In this document: one piece after another, positions 4,505 through 27,340 of the stretch
Position numbering within the stretch: the stretch's first letter is position 1
How the letters are laid out: each line of letters starts with the position of its first letter
Assembly (NCBI RefSeq): GCF_019968905.1
Contig: NZ_CP079946.1
Location: forward strand, 8,467,356-8,531,355
Length of the DNA: 64,000 nucleotides
Source: Corallococcus sp. EGB
GTDB lineage: Bacteria; Myxococcota; Myxococcia; Myxococcales; Myxococcaceae
Direction: 5' to 3'
The notes under the pieces: generated by a model
What the model saw: the letters and a program-made list of their open reading frames with translations, nothing else
What the model was told of the DNA's origin: nothing
Databases searched by the model: none
Program-made: the position numbers and the translations under genes

Positions 4505-4522
4505 CCATGCCCGGAGGCATGG
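4505..4522 (-). promoter_or_regulatory. Hairpin directly after cobalamin riboswitch 2
   Basis: A perfect 7-bp stem (CCATGCC/GGCATGG) with a CGGA tetraloop lies 3 bases past the 3' end of the aptamer on the minus strand. There is no T-run after it, so it is more likely part of an expression platform or a pausing structure than a classic intrinsic terminator. Confidence 0.45.
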
Positions 4523-4524
4523 GT

Positions 4525-4745
4525 CGTGGCAGGTCTTCGGACTCGCAGGCGCGGGAGCCCCTCATCGGGTCACCCACCTACTGACCGTCGCTTCCCAGCC
4601 CATCCGTGGGCCAGTGCTTGCGAGGACGGCGTTCGTTCCTGCTCACCGCTGCGGGGCAGCCCCGGATTCACACCGGGTTCCCTTTTCAACGTCGCACCGT
4701 GCGCGGATGCGGCGTACCAACGACGCGCGCTGGAGTATGGCGGAC
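4525..4745 (-). promoter_or_regulatory. Cobalamin riboswitch 2
   Basis: The minus strand carries, in order, GGGAACCCGGTGTGAATCC, GGGGCTGCCCCGCAGCGGTG, a variable arm of about 75 bases, and GCGAGTCCGAAGACCTGCC (4527-4545). These are the canonical conserved elements of the adenosylcobalamin aptamer. The 3' edge is firm; the 5' edge is estimated from the expected P1/P2 stems. It lies about 170 bases before the start of the lipoprotein at 4353. Its core and downstream leader are closely similar to riboswitch 1, consistent with duplication of the whole unit. Confidence 0.92.
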
Positions 4746-8401: not shown

Positions 8402-8420
8402 GCGGCAGGACCGCTGCCGC
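8402..8420 (-). promoter_or_regulatory. Hairpin directly after cobalamin riboswitch 3
   Basis: A perfect 7-bp stem (GCGGCAG/CTGCCGC) with a 5-base loop lies between the aptamer and the btuB start, about 40 bases before the ATG. No T-run follows. It could be a transcription-pause or anti-sequestering element of the expression platform. Confidence 0.45.
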
Positions 8421-8424
8421 ACCC

Positions 8425-8660
8425 CTGGGCAGGTCTCCTGGCTGACAGGCTCCAGACGTGGGCGCACGCTGCGCCCTTCTGGAAGGAACCCTCCACCTTC
8501 CCTTCGCGGAAGCGAAAGTGGTGACAGCCGAGGCTTCCGGCCCTGGACCTCAGGGCAACCCGTTCACAGTGGCGGGACCGCGCCGGACTCGCACCGGCTT
8601 CCCTCTTGAAGGCCCGGCATGGGCACCCAAGGGCCCGGTCCTTCTAGGAGGTCACCCCCA
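8425..8660 (-). promoter_or_regulatory. Cobalamin riboswitch 3 (btuB leader)
   Basis: The minus strand shows GGGAAGCCGGTGCGAGTCC, then GGTCCCGCCACTGTGAACGG, a long variable arm that includes a stem-loop-rich 8480-8540 segment, and the closing block GTCAGCCAGGAGACCTGCCC (8427-8446). These match the conserved cobalamin aptamer more closely than the other two copies, especially the CCGCCACTGT box. The 5' limit is approximate. It should repress the btuB operon when intracellular adenosylcobalamin is high. Confidence 0.95.
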
Positions 8661-19673: not shown

Positions 19674-21704
<2,031 letters not shown>

Positions 21705-21830
21705 GAGGAGGTTCCTCCGGAGAGATGGAACCCGGACCGTGCCCTCGGGAGGGCGGACTGTCCACCGATGGATGCGGGCCCTGCTGGAATGGTTGGAAGG
21801 CCCTGACGCGCGGTGCTACAGATTCAGCCC

Positions 21831-22451
21831 ATGAGCGAAACCATCGTCGTCCACGTCTGGTCCGACTTCGTTTGACCCTGGTGTTACGTCGGCCTCGGTG
21901 AGGTCGAGAAGCTGAAGAAGGAATACGACGTCCAGGTGGAGTGGCACCCCTACTTCCTGCGCCCGGAGACGCCTCCGGAAGGGCTGCCGTTGCCCGAGTA
22001 CGTGCGCCAGGGGATGAAGGACCCCAACAACCCGCTGAAGCTCCGCGCCGCCAAGGCCGGTCTGACCATGGTGCAACGGGACATCATCCCGTCCACGCGC
22101 CGCGCGCATGAAGCGGCGGAGTACGCGCGCGCCATGGGCAGGCTGGAGCCCTTCCAGGCCGCCATCCTGCGGCGCTACTGGAGTGAAGGTCATGACCTCT
22201 GGCAGTGGGACACGCTGCGGGCCGCGGGCGTGGAGGCCGGGGTGGATCCGGACGAACTCCAGCGCGCGGTGGAGGAGGGCCGGTACCGGCGGGTGGTGGA
22301 GGAGTCCGTGCGCGAGGCCCAGGAGATGGGCATCCGCGCGGTGCCCACCTTCATCCTGGGGGAAAAGCTGGCCATCCAGGGCGCGCATGAGTACCCGTCG
22401 TTCCAGCGGGCCATGCAGCAGTTGGGTGCGAAGCCGAAGAAGCAGGGCTGA
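21831..22451 (+). CDS. Probable selenoprotein: DsbA/FrnE-family oxidoreductase with a Sec-Pro-Trp-Cys active site
   Basis: A 206-residue thioredoxin-fold protein if the in-frame TGA at 21873-21875 is read as selenocysteine. The reading frame from the ATG at 21831 is MSETIVVHVWSDFV, then TGA, then PWCYVGLGEVEKL. Relatives have Cys-Pro-Trp-Cys at this place (SDFVCPWCYVG), so the TGA is exactly at the nucleophilic Cys (residue 15), with the resolving Cys at 18. Both sides of the TGA match the family, and the rest is intact to a normal C-terminus: HPYFLRPETPPEGLP, the helical insert, IRAVPTFILGEKLAIQGAHEY with the cis-Pro. A bSECIS-like hairpin follows at the right distance. Alternative: a nonsense mutation or sequencing error, with a residual 171-residue product from 21936. 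The promoter region is shared with the divergent peptidase gene. Confidence 0.82.
21889..21907 (+). promoter_or_regulatory. bSECIS-like hairpin for UGA recoding
   Basis: An 8-bp stem (TCGGCCTC/GAGGTCGA, one G-T wobble) closed by a GGT loop, within the coding sequence. The loop begins 21 bases after the TGA (21873-21875). Bacterial SECIS elements bound by SelB are short hairpins immediately downstream of UGA with G and U in the apical loop at about this distance. Confidence 0.7.
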
Positions 22452-22455
22452 GGCG

Positions 22456-23709
22456 CTACAGGCCCTTCACCAGGATGAGCAGCCGCGCGAAGGTCTCCGG
22501 ACCTTCGCCGGCCAGGCCCCTGGCGAAGTCCAGGAACGTGGGCGCCTGCTCCACGTGCTTGGCGACGACCTGGAACGACTCCACGGCGGCGGCGTCCAGC
22601 GCGGCCACGGGCGTGCCGGGCGCGGCCAACAGCGCCACCACGGCGGGGTGCCCGAGCAGCACCCAGCGCGCCACGGAGGCGCGCAGCACGAGCAGGAACA
22701 CGGCGTTCAGGAGGCTCTCGGCCTCGGTGAACGGGTGGCGCAGGACGTGGTTGAGCGCGTGGTGCAGGAAGTACTGGTGCACGCGCTCCCCGTGCAGGGA
22801 CTCCAGGGCGGAGCGCCGGCCGGCGTGGAGCCGCCACGCGTCGTCGGGACGCGCGTCCGCGCCACCGTAGGACGCGCGCACGTCGCTCATGAGCGAGAGG
22901 AAGCGCGGGCTGCTGACCGCGGCTTCGCGTGAGCGGAGCACGGCGGCGCAGATGCCGGCCCACGGGCCTCCGGGCAGCTCCAGCGCATCGAGCTGCGCGC
23001 GCAGGGACGTGAGGGTGTCCGCGGAGTCATACTCACGAAGGATGCTCGCGAGCCGCTCCGAATCTGCTGGTCCGAACGCCGCCGTCCCCGGGAAGTAGAA
23101 GCCGCCCAGGTCCAGCGCCATGCGGCCCAGCGCGAACAGGCGCGCGGCGAACGGGGCTTCGCGCCGGCTCAGGAGCCGCAGCATCGCTTCGCGCACGGCG
23201 TCCGCGTGGGCCGTCCACGCGTCGTCCCCCGCCGCCACCTGCCTCGCGACCTGGGGACGCAGGGCCTGCTCCTCGGGCACGGGCTCGCGCACCAGCGCGT
23301 CCTCCGCCAGCAGGCACAGGCGCGCGGTCTCCGGACACGCGAGCGACCCGGCCATCTCCACCTGTGCGCCCCAGCGCGTGAGGACTCGCGGGAAGACGGA
23401 GCAGCCGTCCGGCAACACGGGCTCACCGTACCGGCGCTGGAGCGAGCACAGCTTCGCTTCGTCCAGGAAGGCGCAGTGTCCGTCCGCGCGCTTGCCCAGG
23501 ATGCCGGCCTGCTGGCCCGTGGCCCCGTCCGGGTTCGGAGCAATCAGCGCCGCGACGCGCGCTTCGTCCGGCGTGCCCGCGACCTTCTGGCGCAGCAGGC
23601 TCCAGCGCGGCTCGCTGATGGGCACCGTGAGCCCGGCGCAGCAGGTGTCCTCGCACGCCTCCGCGATGCAGCGGAAGCGCGCCATGTAGCGAGGGGCGGA
23701 GGCGGTCAT
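22456..23709 (-). CDS. FliB-type (flagellin lysine N-methylase-like) Cys-cluster protein
   Basis: A 417-residue protein with an N-terminal Cys-rich cluster of the FliB/YkgJ kind: RFRCIAEACEDTCCAGLTVPI (about residues 12-32), GHCAFLDEAKLCSLQRRYGEPVLPDGCSVFPR (about 77-108), then SLACPETARLC. These match the metal-binding head of proteins annotated as flagellin lysine N-methylase; the remaining 280 residues are helical and less conserved. In enterobacteria FliB methylates flagellin, but myxobacteria glide without flagella, so the substrate here must differ. The ATG is 10 bases after the stop of the PilZ-Hsp70 gene, so they form an operon. Confidence 0.82.
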   Translation of the reverse strand: MTASAPRYMARFRCIAEACEDTCCAGLTVPISEPRWSLLRQKVAGTPDEARVAALIAPNPDGATGQQAGILGKRADGHCAFLDEAKLCSLQRRYGEPVLPDGCSVFPRVLTRWGAQVEMAGSLACPETARLCLLAEDALVREPVPEEQALRPQVARQVAAGDDAWTAHADAVREAMLRLLSRREAPFAARLFALGRMALDLGGFYFPGTAAFGPADSERLASILREYDSADTLTSLRAQLDALELPGGPWAGICAAVLRSREAAVSSPRFLSLMSDVRASYGGADARPDDAWRLHAGRRSALESLHGERVHQYFLHHALNHVLRHPFTEAESLLNAVFLLVLRASVARWVLLGHPAVVALLAAPGTPVAALDAAAVESFQVVAKHVEQAPTFLDFARGLAGEGPETFARLLILVKGL

Positions 23710-23719
23710 GGGCCCCAGT

Positions 23720-26700
23720 CTACTTGCGGCCCAGGGCCTTCTTCACGAAGCCCCAGAAGCGGCCCGCGCGGTCCTTGAGGTCCGCGCCCCGGCGCTCCTC
23801 GGCGGCGTTCACCGCCTCCTTGCTGACCTGGAGCTGCTTCTGGAGCTCCTCCGGCGAGTAGCGCGTGGCGAGCGTCGCCTTCACTTCCTTGCGCGTCGAA
23901 TACTCACGCGCCTCCACGTGCAGCACGCATTCGGAGTCGAGCTTCAGCGTCACGGCCACGCGCACGGAGCCCTTGGGCCCGCGCGGCAGGCCCTCCATGC
24001 GCACCGTGCCCAGGTATTCGTTGGCGGAGATGTGGTTGTCCTCGCCCTGGAAGATGGACAGCTCCATCCGCTCTTCGTTGTCCTGCGACGTGCTGATGGC
24101 GAACGAGCGCTGCGTGGGCAGCGGGCTGTTGCGCTCGATGACGCGCTTGAAGCCGCCGCCGGGCATGGCCACGCCGATGGTCATGGGCAACACGTCGATG
24201 AGCACCACGCTGCTCACCTTGTCCACCGAGCCCGAGTACAGCGCCGCGCCCAGCGCCACGGCCTCGTCCGCGTTGACGCTCGCCTGCGCGTTCTTGCCGA
24301 ACAGCCCCTTGAGCTTGTCGCGCACCAGCGGCATGCGGCTCATGCCGCCCACCAGGATGATGTCGTCCACCTCCGAGGCCTTCAGCTTGGAGTCCAGCAG
24401 CACGTCGCGCACCACGTCGACGGTGCGGTTGAGCAGCGGGTCGCAGATCTTCTCCAGCTCCTGCCGCGTCATCGTCACGCGCAGGTCCCTCGGGCGGCCC
24501 GCGTCGTCCATCATCAGCATGGGGATGTGGACCTCGAAGGTGCTGCGCTCGGACAGCGCCATCTTCGCGCGCTCGGCGGCGTCGCCCACGCGCGACAGCG
24601 CGATGCCGTCCCCGTTGAACGCGATGCCTTCCTTCTCCTGGAAGCGCTCCAGCAGGAAGTCGACGATGAGGTTGTCGAAGTCGATACCGCCCAGGAAGAT
24701 GTCGCCGCCGGTGCCCAGCACCTCGAAGACGTTCTTCTCGATGCGCAGGATGGTCGCGTCGAAGGTACCGCCGCCCAGGTCGTAGACGAGCACCTTCTTG
24801 TTGAGCTCGCGGTTGAGGCCGTATGCGAGCGCCGCGGACGTGGGCTCGTTGAGGATGCGCTCCACCTTGAGGCCGGCCATCGCGCCCGCCTTGCGGACCG
24901 CTTCACGCTGGGGCTCGGAGTAGTAGGCCGGCACCGTCACCACGGCGCGCTCCACCTTCTGGTTGAGGTGGGATTCGGCCATCTCCTTGCACTCGCGCAG
25001 GATGATGCCCTGCACCTCTTCCAGCGACAGCACGTCGTTGCCCAGGCGCACGGCGGCGCGGCCCGCGGCGTCGGGGGTGATTTCGTAGTGGAAGCGCTCG
25101 CGCACCTGCTTCACCACGGCGCTGTCGTAGGGACGGCCCACCAGGCGCTTCGCGCCGTAGATGGTCTGCGTGGGCCGCAGGACCAGCTGGTTCTTCGCGC
25201 GGTGGCTGACGAGCAGCTTGTTCTGCGCGCTCAGCGAGATGACGGACGGGATGGTGTTGTAGCCCTCGCGCGAGCGGAGCACGACGGGCCGGCCGTTGGT
25301 CAGGAGCGCCACGCAGGAGTTCGTGGTGCCCAGGTCGATGCCGATGACCGGCCCCGTGCCGGACAGCGGCTGCTGTGGCGGCGTGAGGTAGATGGGCCGC
25401 ACCTGGCCGTTGGCATCCAGGGGGGCCGGCGCGGCGGGCACCGGCGCGGCGGCGGGCGCGAGCATCGCGGGGGCGCTCGGCGCGGCGGGCGCGGACGGGG
25501 CCTGGCGCACGGAGGGAGGCAGCGCGCTCGGCTGCGGCGGCGGGGCCACGGGCCGGGGACGCCCCGGGGAGGACACGGGCTCGCGCGCCAGCTCCAGCGG
25601 CCCGTCGTCGTCCACGGACAGGTCCAGGTCGAACTCAGTGCTGCCACCGGAGGAGCGCGGCGGCGCGGGCGGCTGCGGCGGCGCGGGCGGCACCGCGCGG
25701 CCCCAGGACGATGCCGGCTCCAGGGCGAGGTCGGGCGCGCGGCCCGCCGTGGGGCCAGGCGCCGCGGGACGATTGGCGAAGGAGCCGGGCTCCAACGGCA
25801 GCTCACCGGGAGCACGCGCGGCAGGACGCCCCGCCACGGATCCGGGCTCACGGCCCAGGCCCGGCACAGCAGCACGGCCCGCGGATCCGGGCTCCAGTCC
25901 GAGACCCGGCGCGGCCGGGCGACCGGCGGAGGAGCGCGGCTCAAGCCCCAGGCCTGGCGCGGCACGGCCCGCGGATCCGGGCTCCAGTCCCAATCCAGGC
26001 GCGGCACGGCCCGCGGCGGAGCCGGGCTCACGCCCCAGTCCCGGCGCACGGCCCGCTGCGGACCCGGGCTCACGCCCCAGTCCCGGCGCACGGCCCGCTG
26101 CGGACCCGGGCTCGCGGCCCAGTCCCGGCGCGGCGGCACGGCCGGGCGAGGACGCCGGCTCACGCCCCAGCGGCGGACGCTGACGGCCCGACGACTTGGG
26201 CTCGTGCGCCAGCTCCAGCGGGTTGTCGTCCAGTGACGACAGGTCGAAGTCGAACTCGGTGCTGCCGCCGGAGGACGGAGCGGGGGCCGGCGGCGCGGGC
26301 GGCTTCACCGCGGGCGGAGGGGGCGGAGGGGCCGCGCGCTGCACGGGCGCCGGAGGCACCGGCGCGGCGCGAGGTGGCGGCGCGGACTCGAAGGCATCCG
26401 AGAAATCCAGCTCGAACCCACCCGCGTCGCCCGCGCCCGAAGCCGCGCTGTCCTCGACGGAGAGGCCCACTTCGATGGGCACCTCTTCCAGCGCCTGGCC
26501 CATGGCGATGGGCGCGTCCACGCTCGGAGGCTCGAGCTCGAAGTCGAGCCCGGGCAGCGGTTCATCATCGCCCGACAGCACGCCCTGCACGGCGGGCGGA
26601 GGCGTGCCCGCGATGAGCTCGTCCAGCGGGATGTCCACGTCGTTGGCGGAGTCCGCCTCCGCCAGGCCCAGCGCCTCGTCCGGAGTCCCCAGCGAGAACG

Positions 26701-27340
26701 GCTCATCCGCGCCGCCCAGGGACAGCGGCTCGTCCACCGCGAGCGCGGGGCTGGACGGTGCATCCAGGTCGTCGAACAGGGAGTCGAGCGCGGCCCCACC
26801 CGAGGCGGGACGCGCGGGCGCGGCAGGCGGCGCGACAGCGGCGGGACGCGCGGGGACGGCGGCGGGCCGGGGCGCGGCAGCGACAGGGACCGGCGCGGCC
26901 ACGGGCGGACGCACGGGCGCGATGCCCGGCGCGGCCAACGGCGCGATGCCCGGCGCCACGACCGGCGCGATGGAAGGCAGCGGCGCGGCGACCGGCGCGG
27001 CTCCGCCCGCCTTGCGCTGGAGCATCATGTCCACGAGCGCGCGGCTCGCGGTGTCCAGCTCCTGGAACTGCAACCCCATGCCCGGAGGTCCCGCGGGGTC
27101 GTTCAGCTCGCGCACCCAGCGCACCGTCGCGGTGCCCTGGAGCACGCGCACGCCGTTGGCGATCTGCACCTCGAAGCGCACGGGCGTGCCCACCGCCTGC
27201 GGCGTGCGCGAGCGGATGAACATGCCCCCAGGGCTGATGTTGGTGGCGAACTCCTCGGTGAAGCTCCCCACGGACTCATGCTTGAGCTTCACCAACAGAC
27301 CGACCGACTTGCGGTCCGAGGTACGCCGACCTTGATCCAT
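23720..27340 (-). CDS. PilZ-Hsp70 fusion protein with long Pro/Ala/Gly repeat linker
   Basis: A 1206-residue fusion. Residues 1-110 are a PilZ domain of the type common in myxobacteria (RRTSDRKSVGLLVKLKHESVGSF, NISPGGMFIRS, GMGLQFQEL). Residues about 110-655 are a low-complexity Pro/Ala/Gly linker with acidic patches, including about eight repeats of GLGREPGSAAGR/GLGLEPGSAGR and two copies of an S-T-E-F-D-F-D-L block. Residues about 660-1206 are an Hsp70 ATPase with VIGIDLGTTNSCVALL, VYDLGGGTFDATIL and DDIILVGGMSRMPLV, then the substrate-binding beta domain; the helical lid of DnaK is mostly missing, replaced by a short charged tail (FVKKALGRK). The classical 'RxxxR' c-di-GMP motif of PilZ is not obvious. 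It is first in an operon with the FliB-type gene. Confidence 0.9.
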   Translation of the reverse strand: MDQGRRTSDRKSVGLLVKLKHESVGSFTEEFATNISPGGMFIRSRTPQAVGTPVRFEVQIANGVRVLQGTATVRWVRELNDPAGPPGMGLQFQELDTASRALVDMMLQRKAGGAAPVAAPLPSIAPVVAPGIAPLAAPGIAPVRPPVAAPVPVAAAPRPAAVPARPAAVAPPAAPARPASGGAALDSLFDDLDAPSSPALAVDEPLSLGGADEPFSLGTPDEALGLAEADSANDVDIPLDELIAGTPPPAVQGVLSGDDEPLPGLDFELEPPSVDAPIAMGQALEEVPIEVGLSVEDSAASGAGDAGGFELDFSDAFESAPPPRAAPVPPAPVQRAAPPPPPPAVKPPAPPAPAPSSGGSTEFDFDLSSLDDNPLELAHEPKSSGRQRPPLGREPASSPGRAAAPGLGREPGSAAGRAPGLGREPGSAAGRAPGLGREPGSAAGRAAPGLGLEPGSAGRAAPGLGLEPRSSAGRPAAPGLGLEPGSAGRAAVPGLGREPGSVAGRPAARAPGELPLEPGSFANRPAAPGPTAGRAPDLALEPASSWGRAVPPAPPQPPAPPRSSGGSTEFDLDLSVDDDGPLELAREPVSSPGRPRPVAPPPQPSALPPSVRQAPSAPAAPSAPAMLAPAAAPVPAAPAPLDANGQVRPIYLTPPQQPLSGTGPVIGIDLGTTNSCVALLTNGRPVVLRSREGYNTIPSVISLSAQNKLLVSHRAKNQLVLRPTQTIYGAKRLVGRPYDSAVVKQVRERFHYEITPDAAGRAAVRLGNDVLSLEEVQGIILRECKEMAESHLNQKVERAVVTVPAYYSEPQREAVRKAGAMAGLKVERILNEPTSAALAYGLNRELNKKVLVYDLGGGTFDATILRIEKNVFEVLGTGGDIFLGGIDFDNLIVDFLLERFQEKEGIAFNGDGIALSRVGDAAERAKMALSERSTFEVHIPMLMMDDAGRPRDLRVTMTRQELEKICDPLLNRTVDVVRDVLLDSKLKASEVDDIILVGGMSRMPLVRDKLKGLFGKNAQASVNADEAVALGAALYSGSVDKVSSVVLIDVLPMTIGVAMPGGGFKRVIERNSPLPTQRSFAISTSQDNEERMELSIFQGEDNHISANEYLGTVRMEGLPRGPKGSVRVAVTLKLDSECVLHVEAREYSTRKEVKATLATRYSPEELQKQLQVSKEAVNAAEERRGADLKDRAGRFWGFVKKALGRK

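Follow-up and report, generated by a model that had tools for sequence, protein, structure and literature searches.

The window analysed here is a 64,000-nucleotide stretch of the genome of Corallococcus sp. EGB, which comprises 9,431,171 bases in one contig. On its forward strand, positions 21831-22451 form the full CDS of a presumed selenoprotein of 206 aa, with an ATG start and a TGA end, and the product matches the DsbA/FrnE fold (PF01323, E 1.8e-31; FrnE chains, E 1e-25). The frame is interrupted exactly once, by a TGA at 21873-21875 (codon 15), and closes with a second TGA at 22449-22451. The internal TGA occupies the first position of a UPWC motif, in the context VVHVWSDFV-U-PWCYVGL, and is the putative site of selenocysteine (Sec) insertion. 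This confirms what the first-pass annotation had claimed, namely a TGA in frame where a Cys-Pro-Trp-Cys motif would have its first Cys, with PWC directly following, in a frame that is otherwise intact. The presumed resolving cysteine, Cys18 (21882-21884), is the sole Cys encoded in the frame and an invariant column in the 22 rows of our alignment A4. Pro172 of the VPTF motif (22344-22346) is the proline expected in cis opposite the active site, a role that we assign from thioredoxin-fold enzymes; it is likewise invariant in the 22 rows, as is Thr173.

As the annotation had it, a table-11 ORF listing gives only a shortened frame from 21936; this has 171 aa, starts with GTG, ends at 22451 on the forward strand and lacks the active site. 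Standard gene callers would cut short a gene whose product is most likely a small disulfide-handling enzyme with Sec in its active site. An open frame around one TGA is not in itself telling: over the six frames, the window has 41 in-frame TGAs with more than 150 stop-free codons on either side, so that such arrangements are common and not beyond chance. Promoter and terminator scans over 21690-22500 found neither.

The gene lies between two genes on the reverse strand. The divergent upstream neighbour (19674-21704) encodes an S9 prolyl oligopeptidase; the convergent downstream neighbour (22456-23709) encodes a 417-aa protein that matches no Pfam family at E 0.001 and may be FliB-like. Beyond it on the reverse strand, 23720-27340 encodes a protein of 1206 aa in which a long stretch rich in Pro and Ala separates a PilZ domain at the N-terminus from an Hsp70 domain at the C-terminus. 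Elsewhere in the window, three cobalamin riboswitches exceed the gathering score within about 7 kb (1616-1775, 4511-4737 and 8411-8645, all on the reverse strand).

Family and predicted fold

When a residue is put in for the TGA, the translation matches PF01323 DSBA at 109.8 bits, above the cut-off of 25.6. A phmmer search aligned residues 2-201 to Deinococcus radiodurans FrnE (E 1e-25), with the TGA opposite the first Cys of CPWC. The AlphaFold model has a pLDDT of 92.5 and a pTM of 0.89, and in Foldseek its five best PDB matches are all entries of D. radiodurans FrnE (E 3.7e-16 and TM 0.84 for 5co3), followed by SCO1869. In the predicted fold, codon 15 comes immediately before helix 16-31 on its N-terminal side, and strand 5-11 precedes it. 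The protein therefore has a CP(W/F)C site in a DsbA-type fold, the first Cys being replaced by TGA, and its nearest solved relatives are FrnE proteins; the DsbA/FrnE assignment made in the first pass is supported by both sequence and predicted fold. A C-terminal CX4C motif, which many FrnE proteins have but not all, was looked for and is absent, Cys18 being the only Cys of the protein.

Another family model, NF041057 (Rcas_1661 family thioredoxin-like (seleno)lipoprotein), is likewise thioredoxin-like and was matched by 19 of the 22 A4 members at E 1e-5. It covers only residues 94-197 of the window protein (E 8.8e-9) and was rejected as its family, the score being 35.3 bits and the cut-off 190.

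The SECIS-like hairpin

Within the CDS, an 8-bp stem (21889-21896 paired with 21900-21907, forward strand) carries an apical GGU loop (21897-21899). The candidate SECIS hairpin thus spans 21889-21907 and was assessed by folding, orthologue comparison and synonymous constraint. The first-pass annotation had described such a hairpin 21 bases past the TGA, and it is present, with 21 nt from TGA to loop. The published bSECIS model calls for a loop of 3-9 nt, a stem of 4-16 bp, a G in the first two loop positions, a spacing of 16-37 nt and an MFE of -7.5 kcal/mol or lower (PMC13188914), and the hairpin fits it in every respect (GGU, 8 bp, 21 nt, and -10.7 kcal/mol for the hairpin alone).

The same model is fitted by 15.4% of random window positions (n=4000), and by 5.35% of the 4000 at an energy equal or better. 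Only when a stem of at least 8 bp, that energy and a loop starting with GGU are all required does the count fall to 2 of 4000. Among the Cys codons of four neighbouring genes, 6 of 20 passed at the -7.5 cut and none of 20 at -10.7. Fold z-scores were only -0.20 to -0.41, shuffled sequences folding about equally well. Since roughly 15% of random positions in this GC-rich window fit the model and shuffles fold alike, the hairpin alone proves nothing, and we rejected it as stand-alone proof. Chance is exceeded only when TGA and hairpin are taken together, as both are conserved in 39 copies, counting that of the window.

Codon 15 and the hairpin among orthologues

We searched 145 genomes of the order, and 100 of them had a match at E 1e-20; the codon aligned to the window TGA could be read in 108 of the 110 loci fetched. 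Group A, defined by about 43% identity or more and the UPWC type, comprises 67 orthologues including the window protein. Its codon 15 is TGA in 39 (in 39 genomes and 11 genus codes) and a Cys codon in the other 28 (14 TGC, 14 TGT). A second DsbA-like subfamily, group B (UPFC type), has 22 TGA and 5 Cys copies, group C (UPWCYLST type) has 3 TGA copies, and the remaining 11 loci have Cys. Across the 108 loci read, no codon other than TGA or a Cys codon was found at this position, which is the alternation that the annotation had proposed looking for in homologues.

The hairpin follows the codon. In group A the bSECIS model was fitted by 39 of 39 TGA copies vs 3 of 28 Cys copies, and, with the 108 loci pooled, by 62 of 64 vs 6 of 44, the latter rate being close to the 15.4% background of random window positions. 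The corresponding counts are 21/22 TGA and 1/5 Cys in group B, 2/3 TGA in group C and 2/11 Cys among the others. Loops in the group-A TGA copies are GGU, GUG, GGC or GGUCG, at a spacing of 20 or 21 nt. The three passing group-A Cys copies (L029, L030 and L031), all from the Corallococcus genus group, keep the 8-bp stem with a GCC loop; this is probably a SECIS decaying after a change from Sec to Cys.

The other two TGA subfamilies deserve mention in their own right. The TGA copies of group B (L088-L094, L096-L100, L102-L106, L108-L110, L113 and L115) have a hairpin, GCAGCCUGGUCAGGCUGC, placed 32 nt from TGA to loop and nearly invariant in copies of 22 genomes; in several of them the lowest-energy hairpin is a different one. 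In the third, L107, L112 and L116, one of the three copies falls outside the bSECIS model.

When A4 was searched against 195 genomes of the phylum, nothing beyond the order matched at E 1e-40. Among the best 80 of 142 relatives, the nearest named ones are from Corallococcus, with 93-95% protein identity. The 63 loci read from this contig scan (L147-L209) all have Cys; since all 63 also show the search pattern DFVCPWCY, the scan says nothing on TGA forms elsewhere. Two genomes, G111 and G095, have one TGA inside the match though codon 15 is TGT, and this is probably the terminal stop because a shorter match lacks it. In one genome of the Corallococcus group (G068), the group-A copy (L125) comes in two separate match pieces with Cys at the codon position, and could be a broken gene or an assembly error.

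Synonymous constraint

For identical amino acids, we compared the fraction of codons that are the same at +6 to +12 after the TGA, under the hairpin, with that from codon +26 onward (37 Sec and 25 Cys rows; the pairs are not independent). Sec-Sec pairs of 60-80% protein identity gave 0.899 under the hairpin vs 0.624, and none of 167 other 7-codon windows was as high. At 80-90% identity the values were 0.992 vs 0.725 (0 of 169 other windows as high), and at 40-60% they were 0.821 vs 0.554 (2 of 148). Cys-Cys pairs gave 0.713 vs 0.691 (76/169 windows as high, 60-80% identity) and 0.597 vs 0.752 (143/169). The conservation of synonymous sites under the hairpin is thus unusual among TGA copies, whereas Cys copies show nothing out of the ordinary. 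Sec-Cys pairs of 80-90% identity, which involve the Corallococcus Cys copies, reached 0.984 (2/169 as high), in line with the stem being kept in those copies.

Of the alignment cells in the stem, 98.9% pair in TGA copies vs 75.0% in Cys copies. Covariation was considered as the main proof and found weak: in TGA copies two of the eight base pairs show changes on both sides and four never vary, and the Cys control also beats its own shuffles (3 of 500 reach its score), so that a high score does not discriminate.

Selenocysteine machinery

The annotation had proposed a search of the same genome for selA, selB, selD and a tRNA-Sec gene, and all four were found: selA at 565 bits, selB at 319, selD at 388, and tRNA-Sec at 70.5 (gathering score 47), for which ARAGORN reads the anticodon TCA. 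Six further, weaker hits of the tRNA-Sec model fall in this genome, one of them, at 47.6 bits, just above the cut-off. The model exceeded its cut-off in 5 of 14 control genomes too, so that weak hits mean little; only the 70.5-bit match backed by ARAGORN was counted.

Of the 145 genomes of the order, 121 have tRNA-Sec, 128 selA and 118 selB. Among the 39 genomes with a group-A TGA copy, selA was detected in every one, tRNA-Sec in 38 (all except G010) and selB, at E 1e-60, in 37 (all except G087 and G134). For the 28 group-A Cys copies, selA, selB and tRNA-Sec occur together in 25 of the genomes; because most Cys copies therefore sit in competent genomes, the machinery is a weak discriminator of Sec and Cys states inside the order. 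In genome G076 (100% estimated completeness, two contigs), tRNA-Sec, selA and selB are all missing at the thresholds used; its group-B copy has TGT, and G077-G082, of the same genus code, show all three genes.

A second likely selenoprotein of the Corallococcus sp. EGB genome is a formate dehydrogenase alpha homologue with one in-frame TGA (L214:1501-2250, G000:C1:9357938-9358687). Its context, NQARI*HASTV, resembles, as we take it, the Sec site in the E. coli formate dehydrogenases. Another such homologue (G000:C1:5279126-5281128) falls into two match pieces two bases apart in different frames, and could be a broken gene or a sequence error.

Interpretation of the in-frame TGA

Taken together, the alternation of TGA and Cys, the hairpin in all 39 TGA copies and the presence of the machinery support well the Sec active site claimed in the first pass. 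We are highly confident that the gene encodes a FrnE-type (DsbA-fold) thiol-disulfide oxidoreductase, probably cytoplasmic, with Sec as the putative attacking residue. For the window protein, SelB recruitment, Sec insertion, redox activity and cellular location are what we infer. The ribosome would arrive at the UGA of codon 15, and the hairpin, beginning 13 nt past it, would recruit SelB with Sec-tRNA-Sec, such that Sec would be inserted in place of termination; the terminal TGA of the same gene would terminate normally. The substrate, a disulfide or another oxidised thiol, would then be attacked by the selenol of Sec15, and the mixed selenylsulfide would be resolved by Cys18. With Cys18 as its only Cys, the protein would depend on an external thiol system to reduce and regenerate the U-C pair. 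A role in stress protection, as for Deinococcus FrnE, would be a guess by analogy.

Three other readings of the TGA have to be weighed. The codon might be read through as another amino acid by a near-cognate Trp or Cys tRNA, with no part played by the Sec machinery; low-level readthrough of UGA does occur in bacteria. However, the codon alternates with Cys only and never with Trp, the gene itself uses TGA as its terminator, Sec genes are present in the genome and the hairpin tracks the TGA, all of which makes this reading highly improbable.

It is similarly hard to credit that the TGA is a true stop, with the first 14 codons a leader peptide and a shorter protein made from the GTG at 21936, even with an open frame of 171 aa from that codon. 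A product starting at residue 36 would have neither strand 5-11 nor helix 16-31, and no active site. Moreover, Cys orthologues at the syntenic locus read through the position, and the residues preceding the TGA are conserved together with Cys18.

Least probable of all is a pseudogene or an artefact, with a DsbA gene of the Cys type hit by a nonsense mutation or misread in sequencing, since the single TGA that breaks the frame is indeed one base from TGC or TGT but recurs with an open downstream frame in all 39 group-A copies and again in 22 of 27 group-B copies, with both hairpin and synonymous constraint tracking it.

Synteny and Sec/Cys exchange

We compared the gene neighbourhoods of 46 loci, 16 of them named (L130-L145) and 30 not (L017-L046). 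The S9 peptidase and the 417-aa protein flank the gene in Corallococcus, Citreicoccus and the genus group of Myxococcus (g19), in TGA and Cys copies alike, and in many of these loci a DnaK gene comes next. None of these neighbours was found within the flank examined at the Archangium loci (L032, L033, L043, L139 and L140) or at L040. Both in Corallococcus and in the genus group of Myxococcus, Sec and Cys forms therefore share one locus by synteny.

A quick tree of 72 rows, including a Chloroflexota outgroup, gave at least six changes between Sec and Cys, of which the starred branches force only two. We consider it about an even chance that the order has at least three Sec-containing DsbA-like subfamilies (UPWC, UPFC and UPWCYLST), with repeated exchange of Sec and Cys at one syntenic locus and relic stems left behind. 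If so, myxobacteria would offer a natural series of matched Sec and Cys enzyme pairs, in which changes may have gone both ways.

Comparison with known selenoproteins

We take COG2761 to be the FrnE group. Selenoproteins of the DsbA-like UxxC class (COG2761) were reported in 2005 from the Sargasso Sea (PMC1088965), and a DsbA-like selenoprotein of Anaeromyxobacter dehalogenans, among others, in 2006 (PMC1794560). DsbA 1 to 3 followed in 2008 from Global Ocean Sampling data (PMC2398784), a 2016 survey gives the figures 41 and 45, taken here as organisms and genes (PMC5029168), and a 2026 review lists a 'DsbA-like protein form 1' under PF01323 (PMC13188914). The first-pass annotation was thus right to call DsbA-like UxxC proteins a known class (PMC1088965, PMC1794560, PMC13188914). 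In the main texts of selenoprotein papers (e.g. PMC1088965 and PMC13188914; supplementary tables and subscription papers lie outside this scope), the strings 'Myxo' and 'Myxococc' are absent, and Anaeromyxobacter occurs once in the main text of PMC1794560; an earlier listing of this gene may nevertheless exist.

The UxxC proteins of COG2761, known from the marine metagenome and other records, are likened to the window protein by their published description. They have the same DsbA Pfam domain, Sec as the first residue of UxxC, a SECIS-like hairpin a short way downstream and widespread Cys homologues. The Anaeromyxobacter dehalogenans protein is, like the window protein, myxobacterial and DsbA-like, and has the Sec that is presumed in the window protein (PMC1794560). 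It probably belongs to group B, with UPFC and hairpin GCAGCCUGGUCAGGCUGC at 32 nt; group B has about 28-40% identity to the window protein.

D. radiodurans FrnE (5cnw, 5cp1, 5co3, 5coh and 5xwh) has CPWC at the matching position, with Cys where the window protein would have Sec. Its C-terminal CX4C, proposed to serve in regeneration, has no counterpart in the window protein, and some other FrnE proteins lack it as well (PMC8945050). The D. radiodurans frnE mutant has a greater sensitivity to cadmium and diamide (PMC8945050).

Because Sec and Cys orthologues occupy one locus, and 25 of the 28 Cys copies are in competent genomes, the benefit of Sec to a soil bacterium and the decay of a SECIS once Sec has given way to Cys can be asked about in this order, which offers orthologous Sec and Cys enzymes in related species. 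According to the 2026 review, selenoproteins are seldom kept by aerobic bacteria (PMC13188914). The myxobacteria of this group usually count as aerobes, for which a presumed Sec gene conserved in 39 genomes is a mild surprise. Most likely, the gene is a further member of the known DsbA-like selenoprotein family and not a new kind of selenoprotein.
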